Shown: positions 52,711 through 59,496 of the stretch, piece after piece
How the letters are laid out: each line of letters opens with the position of its first letter
How positions within the stretch are numbered: position 1 is the first letter of the stretch
DNA from: Haloterrigena sp. KLK7
GTDB lineage: Archaea > Halobacteriota > Halobacteria > Halobacteriales > Natrialbaceae
Length of the DNA stretch: 64,000 nucleotides
Assembly: GCF_037914945.1 (NCBI RefSeq)
Contig: NZ_CP149787.1
Span: 2,108,001 to 2,172,000 of the forward strand
Direction of reading: 5' to 3'
Notes under the pieces: generated by a model
What the model was told of the DNA's origin: nothing
Database searches by the model: none
Seen by the model: the letters and a program-made list of their open reading frames with translations, nothing else
Made by a program: the position numbers and the translations under genes

Positions 52711-52810
52711 ACCGTCCCGTTTGCCCCCGACCGGAAAAGGTGACGCGTTCGCGGCGCGCTTCGGGGGTCGATTCGGGCCGCTTTTCTCCCGGTACGCCCT
52801 ATCCTCGAGC

Positions 52811-53314
52811 GTGGAGTGTCACGTCTACTACGAGGGCGACGACGACCCGAACAAGTGCACCGCCAAGCGCCTCGAGAAGTTCGACGAGGCGACCCTCTAC
52901 CGCTCGATGGGGCAGGTGCCCTACGGCGTCGTCCTCAACCCCCACGCCGAGCGGGCGCTGTCGCCGGCCGACGCCGAGGAGGGGCTGGGGACGCTGGTCG
53001 CGCTGGACTGCTCGTGGGAGTCCGCTGAGGCCGCGTCGTTCAAGATGCGCGGCGTCCACCGGGCGCTTCCCTTCCTCGTCGCCGCGAACCCGGTCAACTA
53101 CGGGCGGCCGTTCCGGCTGACCACCGTCGAGGCGCTGGCCGCCGCCTGCTGCATCTTCGGCGATCGGGAACGGGCCGAGGAACTGCTCGAGCCGTTCCGC
53201 TGGGGCGAGACCTTCCTGACGCTCAACGAGGAACCGCTGCGCCGCTACAGCGAGTGTGCCGACTCGAGCGAGGTCGTCGCGGTCCAGGAGGAGTACCTGG
53301 CCGACGAGGAGTGA
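52811..53314 (+). CDS. tsr3: Tsr3-like rRNA aminocarboxypropyltransferase (DUF367)
   Basis: A 167-residue protein matching Tsr3. It adds the 3-amino-3-carboxypropyl group from S-adenosylmethionine to a modified pseudouridine of small-subunit rRNA. Diagnostic stretches are [15 protein letters not shown] at the N-terminus, [15 protein letters not shown] and [20 protein letters not shown], with the SAM pocket around [15 protein letters not shown]. The start is a GTG at 52811, where homology begins ([13 protein letters not shown]). The gene for ribosomal protein L40e follows, so the pair fits a ribosome-linked unit. Confidence 0.9.
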
Positions 53315-53321
53315 CCGCCGG

Positions 53322-53392
53322 TCATATCGAGGGCTGATGGCCGAGTCATGTCGAGGACCGATGGCCGAGGCATGCCGATGACCGATGGCCGA
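53322..53392 (+). repeat. Three imperfect 24-bp tandem repeats
   Basis: Units at 53322-53345, 53346-53369 and 53370-53392, each of the kind TCATGTCGAGGACCGATGG followed by CCGAG. They lie between tsr3 and rpl40e just upstream of the rpl40e TATA box and could be regulatory or neutral. Confidence 0.8.
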
Positions 53393-53716: not shown

Positions 53717-53770
53717 CTACTCGTCGGGATACTTCGGCTCCCGCTTCTCCGCCCGCTCGAGCGCCGTCTC
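53717..53770 (-). repeat. Second copy of the last 54 nt of the MBL gene
   Basis: This segment repeats the 3' end of the MBL gene (53873-53926), stop codon included. The two 54-nt copies differ at four positions, all synonymous in the gene frame. Both encode ETALERAEKREPKYPDE and stop. The copy has no gene body of its own. Confidence 0.9.
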
Positions 53771-53872
53771 GCACCCACCTTTGTTCTTCGGGTCCTCCCT
53801 CACTTCGTTCGGTCGAACCACTCGAAAAATCTGGACCAAAAAGCCGCTCACTCACTCCGTTCGTTCGCGGTA
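53771..53872 (-). mobile_element. 102-nt non-coding element between the two 3'-end copies
   Basis: Read on the minus strand, it starts after the MBL stop with ACCGCGAACGAACGGAGTG. It then shows GTGAGCGGCTTTTTGGTC, CAGATTTTT, CGAGTGGT, GAACGAA and AAAGGTGGG, and ends just before GAGACGG. The same blocks in the same order occur in the element after hisH (57009-57164). No open frame is present. Whether it moves is unknown; I call it mobile-like because of its repeated occurrence and the flanking direct repeats. Confidence 0.5.
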
Positions 53873-54490
53873 CTATTCGTCGGGATACTTCGGCTCTCGC
53901 TTCTCCGCCCGCTCGAGCGCGGTTTCCACGACGTCGCGGACGTTCCCGTGGAAGACGCCGCCGTGGCCCGCGTACATGTGTTCGACGCCCTCTGGCATGC
54001 GCTCGAGCAGGTCCTCGATGCTCTCGATGAGTCGCTCGCGGGACTGACCGGCCATGTCGGTGCGGCCGAAGCTGCCGTAGTCGAACGCCCCGTCGTCGTG
54101 GACGACCACGTCGCCCGAGAACAGCGACGACTCGGAGACCAAGGAGACGTGGTCGTCGGCGTGACCGGGCGTGTAGACCACGTCGAATTCCTCGTCGCCG
54201 ATCGGTACCGTGTCGCCGTCCTCGAGCGCCTCCGTGCGGGTCGGATGGTCGTCGTAGGCGTAGACCTCGGGATCGAAGGCGTCGACGACGGCCGCGAGCC
54301 GTTCGACGTGATCGCCGTGCTGGTGAGTCACGACCACGCTATCGACGTCGTCGACGTGGCTCCGGATCTCGTCGACGATGCCGTCCCACGCGCCGGCGTC
54401 GACCAGCGTCGTCGCTCCGTCCTCGCCGACGGCGAGGAATGCGTTGCAGGTGAACGTCTCCGCGTCCTCGGTGACGTGATGGACCTCCAT
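53873..54490 (-). CDS. MBL-fold metallo-hydrolase
   Basis: A 205-residue metallo-beta-lactamase-fold enzyme. The metal site is complete: THQHGDHVERL (HxHxDH), TPGHADDHVSL, FSGDVVVHDDGAF and YAGHGGVF. The size and layout resemble glyoxalase II-like hydrolases; the substrate is unknown. The start was set at 54490 (MEVHHVTEDAETF), where homology begins. Its last 54 nt occur a second time at 53717-53770, behind a 102-nt element. Confidence 0.88.
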   Translation of the reverse strand: MEVHHVTEDAETFTCNAFLAVGEDGATTLVDAGAWDGIVDEIRSHVDDVDSVVVTHQHGDHVERLAAVVDAFDPEVYAYDDHPTRTEALEDGDTVPIGDEEFDVVYTPGHADDHVSLVSESSLFSGDVVVHDDGAFDYGSFGRTDMAGQSRERLIESIEDLLERMPEGVEHMYAGHGGVFHGNVRDVVETALERAEKREPKYPDE

Positions 54491-54654
54491 ACGCGATGGC
54501 TCGAGGGCCGGCCCCAAAAACGGTGCCGTCGCGGACTGGTCGCGGCGTTTGCCGGGCGAGAGCCGACGACCAGAGCGTCGTCTAGCGGCGACATAAACGG
54601 AAATAAACAGGTAACCACGAGATTTTTCAATCGGAATCCCAAAGATGACACCGT

Positions 54655-54828
54655 ATGGGATTCGGGAGCTACGACGAATCCGAGCAACAAGAAGTCGACG
54701 CTGATTTTGACGACGATGACGCGGTGAAATCCGGTGAAAACAGCCACGAAGGGACGATCGAATTCGAAAACGGTGCGTCCAGCGACGAGTTACTCGATCG
54801 CTTGCAGGAGATCAAAGACGAGACCTGA
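54655..54828 (+). CDS. DUF5786-type small acidic protein
   Basis: A 57-residue protein that starts MGFGSYDESEQQEVDADFDD and ends ELLDRLQEIKDET. This is the look of the DUF5786 family, which is small, acidic and found in haloarchaea; its function is unknown. The C-terminus should be a short helix. Its TGA stop overlaps the ATG of the DUF99 gene (TGATG), so translation of the two is coupled. Confidence 0.82.
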   Translation: MGFGSYDESEQQEVDADFDDDDAVKSGENSHEGTIEFENGASSDELLDRLQEIKDET

Positions 54829-55415
54829 TGAAGCCCGGGGTGCGGGCGCTGGGTATCGCCGAATCGTTTCGTCGCGACGCGGACCGGAGCACGCTCGCCG
54901 GTGCCGTCGTCCGCGCCGACCGGGTCGTCGACGGCCTCGCCTACCGTCGGTGTACCGTCGGCGGAACCGACGCGACCGACGCCGTCCGCGAGCTGATCGA
55001 CGAACTGGGTCGGCCCGACGTCCAGTACGTCCTGCTCGGCGCCGTCGCACCCGCGTGGTACAACCTTCTCGACTGTACTCGTATTCACGAGGCCGCCGAC
55101 CGGCCAGTGATCGCCGTCACCTTCGAGGTGAGTGACGGCCTCGAGGCCGGTCTCCGAGACGCCTTTTCCGGCTCCGACCTCGAGGAGCGTCTCGCGACCT
55201 ATCGCTCGCTGCCCGACCGCCGCGACCTGTCGGTCAACGACGAGACCGTCTACGTGCGCCAGCTGGGCTGTGACGAGGACGAGGCCGCCGAGGTCGTTCG
55301 GGCGTTCACACCCGAAGGCGGTCGTCCGGAGCCGATTCGGGTCGCGAGCGCGGCCGCTCGAGCGGGCGATTCGTACGCCGACGCGCTCGAGACCGAGGAA
55401 GAGGACTCGACGTAG
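54828..55415 (+). CDS. DUF99-family protein (endonuclease V-related fold)
   Basis: A 195-residue protein of the archaeal DUF99 family. Seen are VRALGIAESFRRD at the start, VLLGAVAPAWYNLLDCTRIH in the middle and RPVIAVTFEVSDGLE. The family is related in fold to endonuclease V, and a nucleic-acid role is inferred, not shown. Its ATG shares one base with the stop of the DUF5786 gene. The conserved linkage of a tiny acidic protein to DUF99 suggests they work together. Confidence 0.85.
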   Translation: MKPGVRALGIAESFRRDADRSTLAGAVVRADRVVDGLAYRRCTVGGTDATDAVRELIDELGRPDVQYVLLGAVAPAWYNLLDCTRIHEAADRPVIAVTFEVSDGLEAGLRDAFSGSDLEERLATYRSLPDRRDLSVNDETVYVRQLGCDEDEAAEVVRAFTPEGGRPEPIRVASAAARAGDSYADALETEEEDST

Positions 55416-55442
55416 CTCGAGTGTAATCGGATGGGCAATAGC

Positions 55443-55482
55443 AGCCCCGACTAGCCACCGCTGGGTGGGACTGAAAGGGGCT
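55443..55482 (+). ncRNA. Candidate structured RNA motif (nested hairpins)
   Basis: AGCCCC at 55443 pairs with GGGGCT ending at 55482. Inside, CCACC pairs with GGTGG around GCTG, and the asymmetric GACTGAAA lies between. The nested stems and internal loop look like a structured RNA rather than a terminator. It sits in the gap between the DUF99 and glycosylase genes. Strand is a guess. Confidence 0.35.
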
Positions 55483-55600
55483 TTCACCGTATCGTGTGTA
55501 GCGAAGTCGACTGTAGCCTTGGTTCGAACGACCTGCACCCGAACGGCTCCGGTAAGCGAGACCCGAAAGACGTAGGAGGCGACCGCCTGTCCCACACCGT

Positions 55601-56206
55601 ATGGACGAGTCGGAAGCGATGGACGGGCTCTGCGTGACCGAGTGTACGCGCTGTCCGAAGCTCGTGGACTCCCGGAGCCGGATCGTCAACGGCGCCGGGC
55701 CCGAGGACGCCGATCTGCTGTTCGTCGGCGAGGGGCCGGGCGCGAACGAGGACGAGAAGGGCGAGCCGTTCGTCGGCCGCAGCGGCACCGTCCTCGACGA
55801 CGGTCTCCGGACCGTCGGCCTGGATCGGTCGGACATCCGCATCACCAACTGCGTGCGCTGTCGGCCGCCGGAGAACCGCGACCCATCGAAGGAAGAACTC
55901 GCGAACTGCCGAGGCTACCTCGAGACCGAGATCGATCGGCTGGATCCGGACGTGATCGTCACGCTGGGAAAGGTCCCCAGCGAGCACCTGCTCGACCGCT
56001 CGGTGGCGGTCACCAAGGAGGCCGGCTCCCTCGAGGAGGTCCGCATCAACGGGTCGCCGCGGCGGGTGCTCCTCTGCGTCCACCCGGCGGCGACGCTGTA
56101 CGATCGCAGCCAGGAGGAGACCTTCGAGGACGCGCTCGAGCGGGCGGCGGAGTTGGCGGACGTCGGCGACGGCGACAGCGGCCAGACGCGACTCGACGGC
56201 TTCTGA
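55601..56206 (+). CDS. Uracil-DNA glycosylase family 4 (Fe-S)
   Basis: A 201-residue family 4 uracil-DNA glycosylase that removes uracil from DNA in base-excision repair. Cysteines of the 4Fe-4S cluster are in VTECTRCPKLVDS and NCVRCRPPENRDP with a further ANC. The uracil-binding motif is VGEGPGANEDEKGEPFVG, and motif II includes LLCVHPAATLYD. The last residues, QTRLDGF, resemble a PCNA-interacting peptide (QxxLxxF). It precedes hisH and the replication origin. Confidence 0.93.
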   Translation: MDESEAMDGLCVTECTRCPKLVDSRSRIVNGAGPEDADLLFVGEGPGANEDEKGEPFVGRSGTVLDDGLRTVGLDRSDIRITNCVRCRPPENRDPSKEELANCRGYLETEIDRLDPDVIVTLGKVPSEHLLDRSVAVTKEAGSLEEVRINGSPRRVLLCVHPAATLYDRSQEETFEDALERAAELADVGDGDSGQTRLDGF

Positions 56207-56345
56207 GTGTCTGCGCTGCGATCGGCCAGAGCAGTCCGCGATCGGCCAGAGCAGTCCGTCAGCGCTCGAGAGTACTCGATCTGTACCCGAGACTCGAGAG
56301 TGAGCGAACAGTAATTGACTTCAACGCGCCACACGGAGTACCGGT

Positions 56346-57008
56346 ATGAGCACGCTTTCGACTTCCAGCGAGCAGTCCCTCGCCTCGGTCGTCGTCGTCG
56401 ACTACGGGCTGGGGAACCTCCGGAGCGTCACCCGCGGTCTCGAGCGCGCGGGCGCCGACGTCGAAATCACCGACGATCCGGCCGCCTTCGCGGACGCGGA
56501 CGGCGTCGTCCTCCCCGGCGTCGGGGCGTTCCGCGAGGGCGTCGAGAACGCCGATCCGCTCCGTGAGGACCTCCTCGAGGTCGCCGAGAGCGGTACCCCG
56601 CTGTTCGGGATCTGCCTCGGGATGCAGATGCTGCTGACGACCAGTGAGGAGGGCGAGAACGACGGCGAGTCGGCCGTGCAGGGGCTGGACCTGATCCCGG
56701 GCACCAACGTCCGGTTTGCAGAGGGTCAGAAGGTCCCCCACATGGGCTGGAACGAACTGGACGTCCAGCGCGAGCACCCCCTCGTCGAGGGCGTCGACGG
56801 CCAGTACGCCTACTTCGTCCACTCCTACTACGCCGTGCCCGACGACGAGGACGCGGCGGTCGCGACGACCGACTACGAACGCGAGTTCCCCTCGATCGTC
56901 GCCAACGAGGCGGGCACCGTCTTCGGGACGCAGTTCCACCCCGAGAAGAGCGGCGAGACGGGACTGCGGATTCTGCGGAACTTCGTCGAGATCTGCAGTC
57001 GAGAATAA
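56346..57008 (+). CDS. hisH: Imidazole glycerol phosphate synthase, glutaminase subunit
   Basis: A 220-residue class I glutamine amidotransferase that supplies ammonia to HisF in histidine synthesis. The nucleophile is in LFGICLGMQML, the His/Glu pair in TQFHPEKSGETG, and the N-terminal strand VVVVDYGLGNLRSVTRGLER is HisH-specific. ATG 56346 gives the usual length plus about 15 flexible residues. No hisF or other his gene is adjacent. Its last 54 nt recur at 57165-57218 behind a non-coding element. Confidence 0.95.
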   Translation: MSTLSTSSEQSLASVVVVDYGLGNLRSVTRGLERAGADVEITDDPAAFADADGVVLPGVGAFREGVENADPLREDLLEVAESGTPLFGICLGMQMLLTTSEEGENDGESAVQGLDLIPGTNVRFAEGQKVPHMGWNELDVQREHPLVEGVDGQYAYFVHSYYAVPDDEDAAVATTDYEREFPSIVANEAGTVFGTQFHPEKSGETGLRILRNFVEICSRE

Positions 57009-57164
57009 TCGACCGCGAACGACCAGCGAGAGTGAGCGGTTTTTGGTCTCTTCGCGAACATCGTGAGCGAAGGTCAGCGAAAGCTTCGCTTTCGCTAGAC
57101 AGATTTTTGCGCGAGTGGTGAGTGAGCAGCGCGAACGAACCCGAGCGGAAAAAGGTGGGCGAGT
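57009..57164 (+). mobile_element. 156-nt non-coding element after hisH
   Basis: It shares ordered blocks with the element at 53771-53872: ACCGCGAACGA, GTGAGCGGTTTTTGGTC, CAGATTTTT, CGAGTGGT, GAACGAA and AAAGGTGGG. It has an extra insert of about 50 nt with the palindrome AGCGAAAGCTTCGCTTTCGCT. It ends just before GAGACGG, the first bases of the duplicated hisH end. No coding frame is seen. Confidence 0.5.
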
Positions 57165-57329: not shown

Positions 57330-57362
57330 CTTCAGAGACACACCCCTCGTTGCCGCTGTATA
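57330..57362 (-). repeat. Inverted ORB-like origin repeat
   Basis: On the minus strand it reads TATACAGCGGCAACGAGGGG followed by TGTGTCTC, the same as the repeats at 57751-58256 but in opposite orientation. It bounds the origin on the hisH side. Confidence 0.85.
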
Positions 57363-57446
57363 GATTCGGGAGAGTGGTCATCTCTCGAGAGATCACCGAA
57401 CCCGGCTGCTATCGACTGCTGAACGGCTTCTGATCGATGATCCGTG

Positions 57447-57536
57447 GCTAACACCAATCACTGTTATTAAGTACTAGTTCTGTGTCAACGTCCATTGAGT
57501 GTATTGGACGAGGATACGTCCAATCGGTATTGGACG
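57447..57536. other. AT-rich putative duplex-unwinding element with ATTGGACG motifs
   Basis: The only AT-rich stretch in the origin region (around TTATTAAGTACTAG) lies between the inverted and direct ORB repeats. It carries ATTGGACG at 57503-57510, its complement CGTCCAAT at 57517-57524 and ATTGGACG again at 57529-57536, with a near match at 57489-57496. This is the likely site of strand opening. Confidence 0.65.
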
Positions 57537-57750
57537 TGGACTCGTCGCTCGAGACGAACTCATCCCGCTGTTCTCGATCAGTGTACCGTTACCGAACGGT
57601 GGCCGCAATCGCCGAATCCCTCACTGATTCTGGCTGACTCTGTCGGCATTCCGCTCGAGAACGTCGTTCCGCGTCACCGACCGCACCGCGGGCCGCCCCA
57701 TCCTCCCTCGCCCCACCTCCGCTTCGAGTCGACACCCACCGTCAACTCGT

Positions 57751-58256
57751 TACAGCGGCACCGCGGGGTGTGTGTCTCCACATACAGCGGCACCCCGGTG
57801 TGGAAACCGACCGGCTCAGTTTCGATAGAAACTCTTTTTATCCGATACAGCGGAACTACGGTAACCGTTCCGTTCACCGGGCCTGACTCGCTTCCGCCAG
57901 TGACGGTCGTTCGACCCCGCGTATCCCGATCGGTGGCCGGTTGTTGATCGCCGCGTGTGACCTCCCGCCATACAGCGGCACTCCGGGGTCCCCCGACGAG
58001 CGACGCGGTGAATCGGCGTCGCTATACAGCGGAACCGAGGGGTGTGGTCCCGGCTATACAGCGGCACTCCGGGGTTTCCCGTGCTCTCGCGTCTCCCCAC
58101 TGAGTCCCGATGATCGGTACAGGACGTTCGAGACGGCCATACAGCGGAACTGAGGGATGGGTTTTCGCCTATACAGCGGCACCGTGGGGTGTGTTTCTCC
58201 CTCGATGAGTACCTCTCGAGACGAAACCGAGCGTATACAGCGGCACTCAGGTTCCG
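57751..58256 (+). repeat. Replication origin: nine direct ORB-like repeats
   Basis: Nine copies of a repeat with core TATACAGCGGCACTCCGGGG and, in most, a following TGT. They begin at 57751, 57781, 57844, 57969, 58023, 58055, 58138, 58170 and 58234. The core CAGCGG(A/C)AC is invariant; the GGGGT part is weak at 57844 and 58234. Such origin recognition boxes bind the Orc1/Cdc6 encoded directly downstream. With the inverted copy at 57330-57362 they frame the AT-rich element. No gene is present in 57219-58296. Confidence 0.88.
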
Positions 58257-58296: not shown

Positions 58297-59496
58297 ATGT
58301 CGGATTCGATGGACTACTTCGGCAGCGAGAACGAGATCTTCCGGAACAAGGAGCTCCTGCAGGTCTCGCACCTCCCCGACGGGGATCGGATCATCGGCCG
58401 CGAGGACGAGCTGACGAACCTCGCGAACGCGATCAAACCCGCCACGCGGGGGAACACGCCGAACAACGTGCTCGTCTACGGGAAGACGGGAACCGGGAAG
58501 TCCCTCTGTTCGAAGTTCATCACGAACCAGGCCATCGAACGCGCGGAGGGCAACGACGTCTCGATCGGCGTCGCGTACGTCGACTGCCTGCAGGAGTCGA
58601 CGGAGACCCAGGCCGTCCAGTCGGCCGGCCACCAGCTCAACGACCAGTCCGCGACGAACGTCTCGATCCCCCACTCGGGGCTGAGCACGGCCGAGTACTA
58701 CCGGCGCCTGTGGCACATCGTCGACACCCGCTACGACGTCGCCCTGATCATCCTGGACGAGGTCGACAAGATCGAGGACGACGACATCCTGATGCAGCTC
58801 TCGCGAGCCGTCGAATCCGGCAAACTCACCGAGAGCACGGTCGGCGTCATCGGTATCTCGAACAAGGTCCGCTACAAGGACTCGCTCGACGAACGGATCA
58901 AGTCCAGCCTCTGCGAGCGCGAGTACGTCTTCTCGCCGTACGACGCCACCCAGATCCGTGAGATCCTCCGCTCCCGATCGGACGCGTTCCACGAGGGCGT
59001 CCTCGAGGACGGCGTCATCCCCCGCGTGGCCGCGCTGGCGGCCCGGGAACACGGGGACGCGCGGAAGGCGATCGACATCCTCCGATTCGCCGGCGAGATC
59101 GCCGAGGAGAACGCCCTCGAGCGCGTCACGGAGTCCTGCGTCGATCAGGCCCACGAGCGCGAGGAGACCAGCCGGCTGGCCGAACTCATCTCCAAGAGCC
59201 CCAGTCACGCGAAACTCGTCCTCGAGGCGATGGCGCTGTTGACCCAGCAGAAGGAGGGCGACGACGCGCCCGTGACGACCAACGAGGTCTACGACCTCTA
59301 CAAGCGGCTCTGTGACCGCGACGGCTCCGAGCACCTGAAACTGCGCCGGATCCGGGACATCCTCTCGGAACTCGAGTTCCTCTCGATCATCGATCAGGAG
59401 CGCAAGTGGGCCGGGAAGGGGAAGGGCAACTACATGGAAAACCGGCTGATCGACGATCCCGAGGTCATCATCGCCGCCTGCAACGAGTCCGAGTAG
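58297..59496 (+). CDS. orc1: Orc1/Cdc6 replication initiator
   Basis: A 399-residue AAA+ initiator that binds origin repeats and helps load the MCM helicase. Walker A is VYGKTGTGKSLCSKF near residue 66, Walker B is LIILDEVDKIED, and sensor 1 lies in GVIGISNKVRYKD. Sensor 2 is REHGDARKAIDILRFAGE, and a C-terminal winged-helix domain starts near residue 300 (SPSHAKLVLEAMALL). The neighbouring repeats show that it serves its own origin. It lacks the long N-terminal extension of eukaryotic Orc1, as usual in archaea. Confidence 0.96.
   Translation: MSDSMDYFGSENEIFRNKELLQVSHLPDGDRIIGREDELTNLANAIKPATRGNTPNNVLVYGKTGTGKSLCSKFITNQAIERAEGNDVSIGVAYVDCLQESTETQAVQSAGHQLNDQSATNVSIPHSGLSTAEYYRRLWHIVDTRYDVALIILDEVDKIEDDDILMQLSRAVESGKLTESTVGVIGISNKVRYKDSLDERIKSSLCEREYVFSPYDATQIREILRSRSDAFHEGVLEDGVIPRVAALAAREHGDARKAIDILRFAGEIAEENALERVTESCVDQAHEREETSRLAELISKSPSHAKLVLEAMALLTQQKEGDDAPVTTNEVYDLYKRLCDRDGSEHLKLRRIRDILSELEFLSIIDQERKWAGKGKGNYMENRLIDDPEVIIAACNESE

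Follow-up and report, generated by a model that had tools for sequence, protein, structure and literature searches.

Short hairpin elements at haloarchaeal gene ends, with proposed replacement gene ends upstream and displaced native ends downstream

Results

Two related elements lie between doubled gene ends

The window, by which we mean the whole 64-kb stretch of DNA analyzed here, contains two short non-coding elements, one following hisH and the other following a gene for an MBL-fold hydrolase on the opposite strand. In both cases, the 3' end of the gene recurs on the far side of the element: the hisH stretch with 95% identity across the first 41 nt and with its own stop codon, and the MBL stretch with 93% identity over 54 nt, including the stop codon. 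The features of the two loci are as follows.

56346..57008, plus strand: hisH (TIGR01855), the gene 5' of element 1
56955..57008, plus strand: hisH 3' end, copy 1, functional; the last ~12 nt are the replacement part
57009..57164, plus strand: element 1, long form, 156 nt, non-coding
57013..57047, plus strand: 5' hairpin of element 1 (CCGC..GCGG), then the T-run TTTTTGGTC; terminator-like
57048..57099, plus strand: optional internal hairpin module of element 1, not in the short form (e.g. the G002 hisH orthologue)
57099..57159, plus strand: conserved 3' hairpin module of element 1, CAGATTTTT...AAAAAGGTGGG; match to model R1, 86 bits
57165..57218, plus strand: hisH end, copy 2 (CAEE, then stop), which resembles a displaced native end
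53873..54490, minus strand: MBL-fold hydrolase gene (PF00753), the gene 5' of element 2
53873..53926, minus strand: MBL gene 3' end, copy 1
53771..53872, minus strand: element 2, short form, ~101 nt; match to model R1 at 53774-53834
53717..53770, minus strand: MBL gene end, copy 2; four differences from copy 1, all synonymous

The original prediction, drawn from the letters of the window, held that both elements are followed by a gene-end repeat, and 54-nt copies are indeed found after the hisH and the MBL element. The ordered blocks that it described as common to the two are real, with columns such as TTTTTGGTC and AAAGGTGGG showing little or no variation among four elements of the genome. 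It further placed the downstream copy directly after the last common block; the copy is there, but a few extra nucleotides (cgagt or tgc) intervene. Its remark that the elements are too short for an enzyme gene also stands, as 60-200 nt leaves no room for an integrase. The two elements differ in form, the 156-nt one having an extra ~50-nt hairpin module that the ~101-nt one lacks, and they are the only matches in the window to R1, our covariance model of the 3' hairpin. The encoded hisH C terminus is ICSRE, compared with ICA[EDQ][EA] in relatives with an empty site.

Elsewhere in the source genome, gatB (L003) provides a third case, with a gene-end repeat matching at 46 of 47 nt, and a gene for a PINA-like ATPase (L149) has a gene-end repeat too; an element near an mrp-like gene (L002) is without one.

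Two other repeat tracts were seen in the window. Adjoining the hisH element, at 57334-58251, an ~18-nt repeat (ATACAGCGGCACTCCGG) is present in at least nine copies, besides inverted ones, upstream of an Orc1/Cdc6-like gene (58297-59496, plus strand; named from its sequence only), and this region resembles a replication origin with repeats for origin recognition. At 53321-53392, past the gene at 52721-53314, a 24-nt unit ending ATGGCCGA is present three times in tandem.

The element is a covarying hairpin module with features of a terminator

Read from the stop codon of the upstream gene, the element consists of a few nucleotides, a 5' hairpin (CCGCGAGCGA..GTGAGCGAGCGG), the T-run TTTTTGGTC, an optional ~50-nt double-hairpin module by which the long and short forms differ, and CAGATTTTT. 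A second hairpin follows, with a TTTTT/AAAAA closing and GA steps inside, and then AAAAAGGTNN(N), a few nucleotides, and copy 2 of the gene end. The 3' terminus is defined (AAAAAGGTNNN) in all cases, and no matching terminal inverted repeats were seen among the aligned elements. Across 102 distinct sequences, standard pairs fill 96.7% of the paired cells of the hairpin. Compensatory changes on both sides were found in 12 of 17 pairs, whereas shuffles gave 6.0 and slid structures 3-6. Because the alignment had been fitted to the structure of the model, these counts are biased in its favor, yet they exceed both controls by a wide margin. Rfam gave no match at the gathering score, nor at E values up to 0.1 for representative loci.

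The element lies flush with protein-gene 3' ends, and its bottom strand contains CCTTTTTCC, with T-runs on both strands. Because of this position and the T-runs on both strands, the element is probably a bidirectional transcription terminator. Among the copies without a gene-end repeat, 42 of 104 have a convergent frame (at least 120 codons) with its stop no more than 40 nt from the 3' end of the element, and 33 of these 42 stops lie at -1 to 7 nt (random positions, 101 of 1055). A terminator role had been one of the options originally considered, and the many repeat-less elements that appear to lie between convergent genes support it. A scan for the bacterial-style terminator pattern did not flag the element and returned nothing above shuffles. 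Terminators made of a T-stretch and a hairpin are documented in Haloferax volcanii, where the T-stretch works in vivo, T5C at 95% (PMC7237163). The element resembles these in its position after genes and in combining a hairpin with T-runs. It differs in that it is a discrete module, conserved and covarying, that has T-runs on each strand, is found at some orthologous gene ends but not at others, and is accompanied by gene-end repeats. On inspection, the 3' end of the element directly abuts the apparent 3' end of convergent tRNA genes at four loci (L217, L219, L225, and L238).

A dispersed repeat of ~170 nt (L115-L118, L100, L109, and others) has the same hairpin core; the 42 copies aligned are conserved from TCAGTACAGG to about GTAGTTACCG. 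It does not lie at gene-end repeats and has several near-identical copies per genome. It is possibly a separate short mobile element, and its existence suggests a second route by which the core may move.

Gene-end repeats recur across Halobacteria

At E ≤ 0.001, R1 matched 114 of 117 genomes of the family, covering 28 of 28 genera, and at E ≤ 1e-6, it matched 86 of 146 genomes sampled from the order. Named records with the exact core pattern are mostly haloarchaeal, including Natrinema, Haloterrigena, Natronococcus, Halorientalis, and Halosimplex; single matches in unrelated bacteria may be due to chance. Upstream sequence, in nearly all cases the gene end, is repeated after 107 of 211 distinct copies, compared with about 10 expected when downstream flanks are re-paired with upstream flanks of other loci (at other loci, 88 of 146 and 19 of 65 elements compared with 7.5 and 2.0 expected). 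The search put forward as a test with the original prediction was carried out and passed, returning many matches flanked by gene-end repeats, with presence or absence varying among related species. As a general feature of the element, the repeat holds for these 107 copies but is missing from about half of the related elements. Generic composition as the source of the likeness is rejected by the re-pairing controls and the hairpin covariation.

The repeats are about 30-140 nt long and are found at about 15 identified housekeeping genes: hisH, MBL-fold, gatB, purH, dph6, etfA-like, ileS, pta-like, PINA-like ATPase, elp3, nuoI, hisE, M24 peptidase, and class-V aminotransferase genes, together with radical-SAM-like and DHH-like genes that have no NCBIfam match and whose names come from sequence alone. 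At several genes, the repeat has more than one start point (three at hisH), which argues for many separate origins. The same junction also recurs at one gene across genera. Some loci form tandem arrays with exact periods, such as five units of 124 nt in G080 and three of 145 nt in G099, and at L214 the gene end is present in three copies. In nearly every case, the final copy is without the 3' hairpin and continues into the native flank.

The downstream copy is the displaced native gene end in clean comparisons

Comparison of occupied with empty sites in related genomes indicated which copy is native. In the genus of the window, G000-G002 have an occupied hisH site and G003-G005 an empty one; for the MBL gene, the occupied genomes are G000 and G005 and the empty ones G001-G004. 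For purH, occupied, empty, and array forms occur side by side in 28 readable loci of one genus. The flank past copy 2 of hisH in G002 is that of the empty gene in G003, and copy 1 in the occupied genomes ends in CSRE, whereas the empty genes end in CA[ED][EA]. Separately, at the empty MBL site of G001 (L042), several ~21-nt units (CAGTCGCCACTCGAAAGAGCG) stand in tandem past the gene.

The purH pairs allow the same comparison nucleotide by nucleotide. Between occupied G108 and empty G111, the gene bodies are 4.5% different, whereas in the last 21 nt, copy 1 has nine differences and copy 2 has one, and the 40-nt flank past copy 2 has two. Similarly, for G091 and G013, copy 1 has four differences and copy 2 has none (flank, 4 of 40), and for G115 and G114, copy 1 has seven and copy 2 has one, the flank past copy 2 not matching in this pair. 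The corresponding P values, which assume independent sites and come from pairs chosen after the alignment had been viewed, are descriptive (1.5e-7 for nine or more differences in G108, 0.003 for G091, and 2e-4 for G115). The ileS locus of G108 agrees, in that its flank past copy 2 matches the empty site of G111. Two of the three purH pairs (G108/G111 and G091/G013) retain the native gene body as far as the duplicated stretch, and therefore the exchanged piece is short.

In these clean pairs, the addition consists of the upstream copy and the element, with a gene end (its last ~20 nt) that is foreign, and the downstream copy with its flank is the displaced native gene end. The claim that the element inserts at and duplicates gene 3' ends thus needs amending: the element does lie at doubled ends, but in the clean comparisons, a replacement end arrives and not a copy of the recipient's own. 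Another of the options first raised, that the elements carry a replacement gene end, is borne out in these comparisons. The flank test was clean in few pairs only; in hisH of G001 and G002, copy 2 is partly like copy 1, and in purH of G106 and G107, the stop codon is common to both copies. In recently formed cases where the copies are 100% identical (L031, L079, and L199), one cannot tell replacement from simple duplication.

Differences between the copies also bear on their history. In nine named genes, mismatches between copy 1 and copy 2 number 49, 30, and 205 at codon positions 1, 2, and 3, of which 207 are synonymous and 77 are not; this count leaves out the unframed loci classed as "other," and the loci are partly related, making the effective number smaller. 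A dead copy decaying beside a constrained one is expected, by a rough estimate, to give some 45% third-position changes. The 72% share seen here would be the pattern of two functional alleles, and the codon-position bias rejects neutral decay after self-duplication. With regard to a reverse-transcription origin (e.g. a diversity-generating retroelement), no adenine-directed mutation was evident. A viral or plasmid vehicle was rejected: the exact pattern had no match in viral contigs, phage gave no match, and plasmids gave three weak matches, to the hairpin only.

Discussion

We consider it reasonably probable that the element is a non-coding hairpin module, probably a bidirectional terminator, that forms a portable unit with a gene end at a limited set of conserved genes and enters by homologous recombination. 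The covarying hairpin, the gene-end repeats, the arrays of units, the patchy presence in related species, and, in the clean comparisons, the displaced native end with a foreign end upstream are all observed, and from them, we infer that the unit enters when its gene-end part undergoes homologous recombination with the end of the resident gene. The unit would pair with the resident end over ~40-60 nt, and a single crossover, with either a circle or a short piece of a tandem array as the partner, would leave the resident gene followed by the replacement end, the element, the displaced native end, and the old flank. The gene would remain intact with a slightly changed ending, and arrays could result from repeated events or unequal crossing-over. 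As far as sequence can tell, the topology equals that of a single-crossover insertion of the gene end and element into a resident end, and homology-driven entry of a small unit is preferred because G108/G111 and G091/G013 show a native gene body as far as the repeat. We saw neither a circle nor a donor nor an enzyme. The presence of one module at about 15 unrelated genes is not accounted for by homologous recombination, nor is its first arrival at a new gene.

In an alternative, a dedicated trans-acting enzyme (a tyrosine integrase, a Cas1-like enzyme, or a single-strand transposase) would insert the element as a non-autonomous passenger at gene ends, which would either serve as attachment sites or be duplicated as unusually long targets. 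The defined 3' terminus (AAAAAGGTNNN), the flush position at gene ends, hairpins prone to form in single-stranded DNA, and the core's presence in the dispersed ~170-nt relative would all suit such an enzyme, as would the likeness in topology to archaeal elements that lie in the 3'-distal parts of protein genes and supply a new stop (PMC6563490). However, no single site or fixed stagger fits unrelated gene ends with repeats of about 30-140 nt, and target duplication predicts near-identical copies that decay at random, not 72% third-position differences and a foreign copy 1. No full-size element with such ends was seen. We think an enzyme of this kind unlikely.

Quite unlikely, in our judgment, is allelic recombination between species, in which donor alleles that are already doubled are swapped together with flanking gene sequence and no mobile unit exists. 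Ordinary allelic exchange of an already doubled locus would leave the same sequence outcome. Haloarchaea are reported to recombine across species (PMC4500145); the copies look like diverged functional alleles, and the junction recurs at a gene across genera. Against this, G108/G111 and G091/G013 are native both before and after the duplicated stretch, which would place both crossovers in the same ~40 nt. Local tandem duplication of a gene end and its terminator, through replication slippage at the hairpins and subsequent loss of the last hairpin, might account for the exact-period arrays and the several pairs of 100% identical copies but is highly improbable, because it predicts a complete element after the last copy, where the 3' hairpin is nearly always missing (on which ground plain tandem duplication is rejected), and does not predict a foreign end.

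The proposed unit of gene end and element resembles several known systems in part. Archaeal integrated elements at gene 3' ends have attachment sites of 29-69 bp in Crenarchaeota, and tandem integration occurs (PMC6563490). Like these integrated elements, for example those of thaumarchaea (PMC6563490), the present insert is bordered by gene-end direct repeats, supplies the new end and stop, and displaces the old; unlike them, it is about 60-200 nt long and non-coding and has no integrase. Integrative elements have one attachment site per type, whereas here a single module family occupies ~15 unrelated genes, several of them with more than one start point. Its topology is thus known from integrative elements that rebuild gene 3' ends, and the several sites and the lack of room for an integrase set it apart. 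The haloarchaeal PATEs, MITEs, and SMRs (PMC3119063) are similarly short, non-coding, palindromic, dispersed, and variable between strains or species. PATEs, whose near-terminal palindromes are related to IS605 ends, and SMRs make no target duplications, whereas gene-end repeats follow 107 of 211 copies here; MITEs have transposon-derived inverted ends and duplications, whereas the repeats here are not short or fixed and the aligned elements lack matching terminal inverted repeats. None of the three carries host gene ends, as reported in PMC3119063. Casposons also use protein-gene ends as targets, inserting in the 3' end of ef-2, but are kilobase-sized and have Cas1 and terminal inverted repeats (PMC6563490). 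Among open-licence papers, we found no description of short elements carrying gene ends.

In the best reading, recombination through the carried piece of host gene end spreads the element, which would be a non-autonomous terminator cassette. More tentatively, the carried end may act as a homing sequence for a mobile terminator module that relies on host recombination and has no enzyme of its own. If so, every insertion would rebuild the gene that it enters, arrays could pile up, and such enzyme-free mobility would be categorically new. For the Halobacteria, the findings describe a conserved structured element outside Rfam at housekeeping genes throughout the class and a widespread route for the replacement of archaeal gene endings and terminators across species. 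The displaced ends form a readable record of recombination at single-gene resolution, and the element offers a testable case of mobility that may require homology alone.
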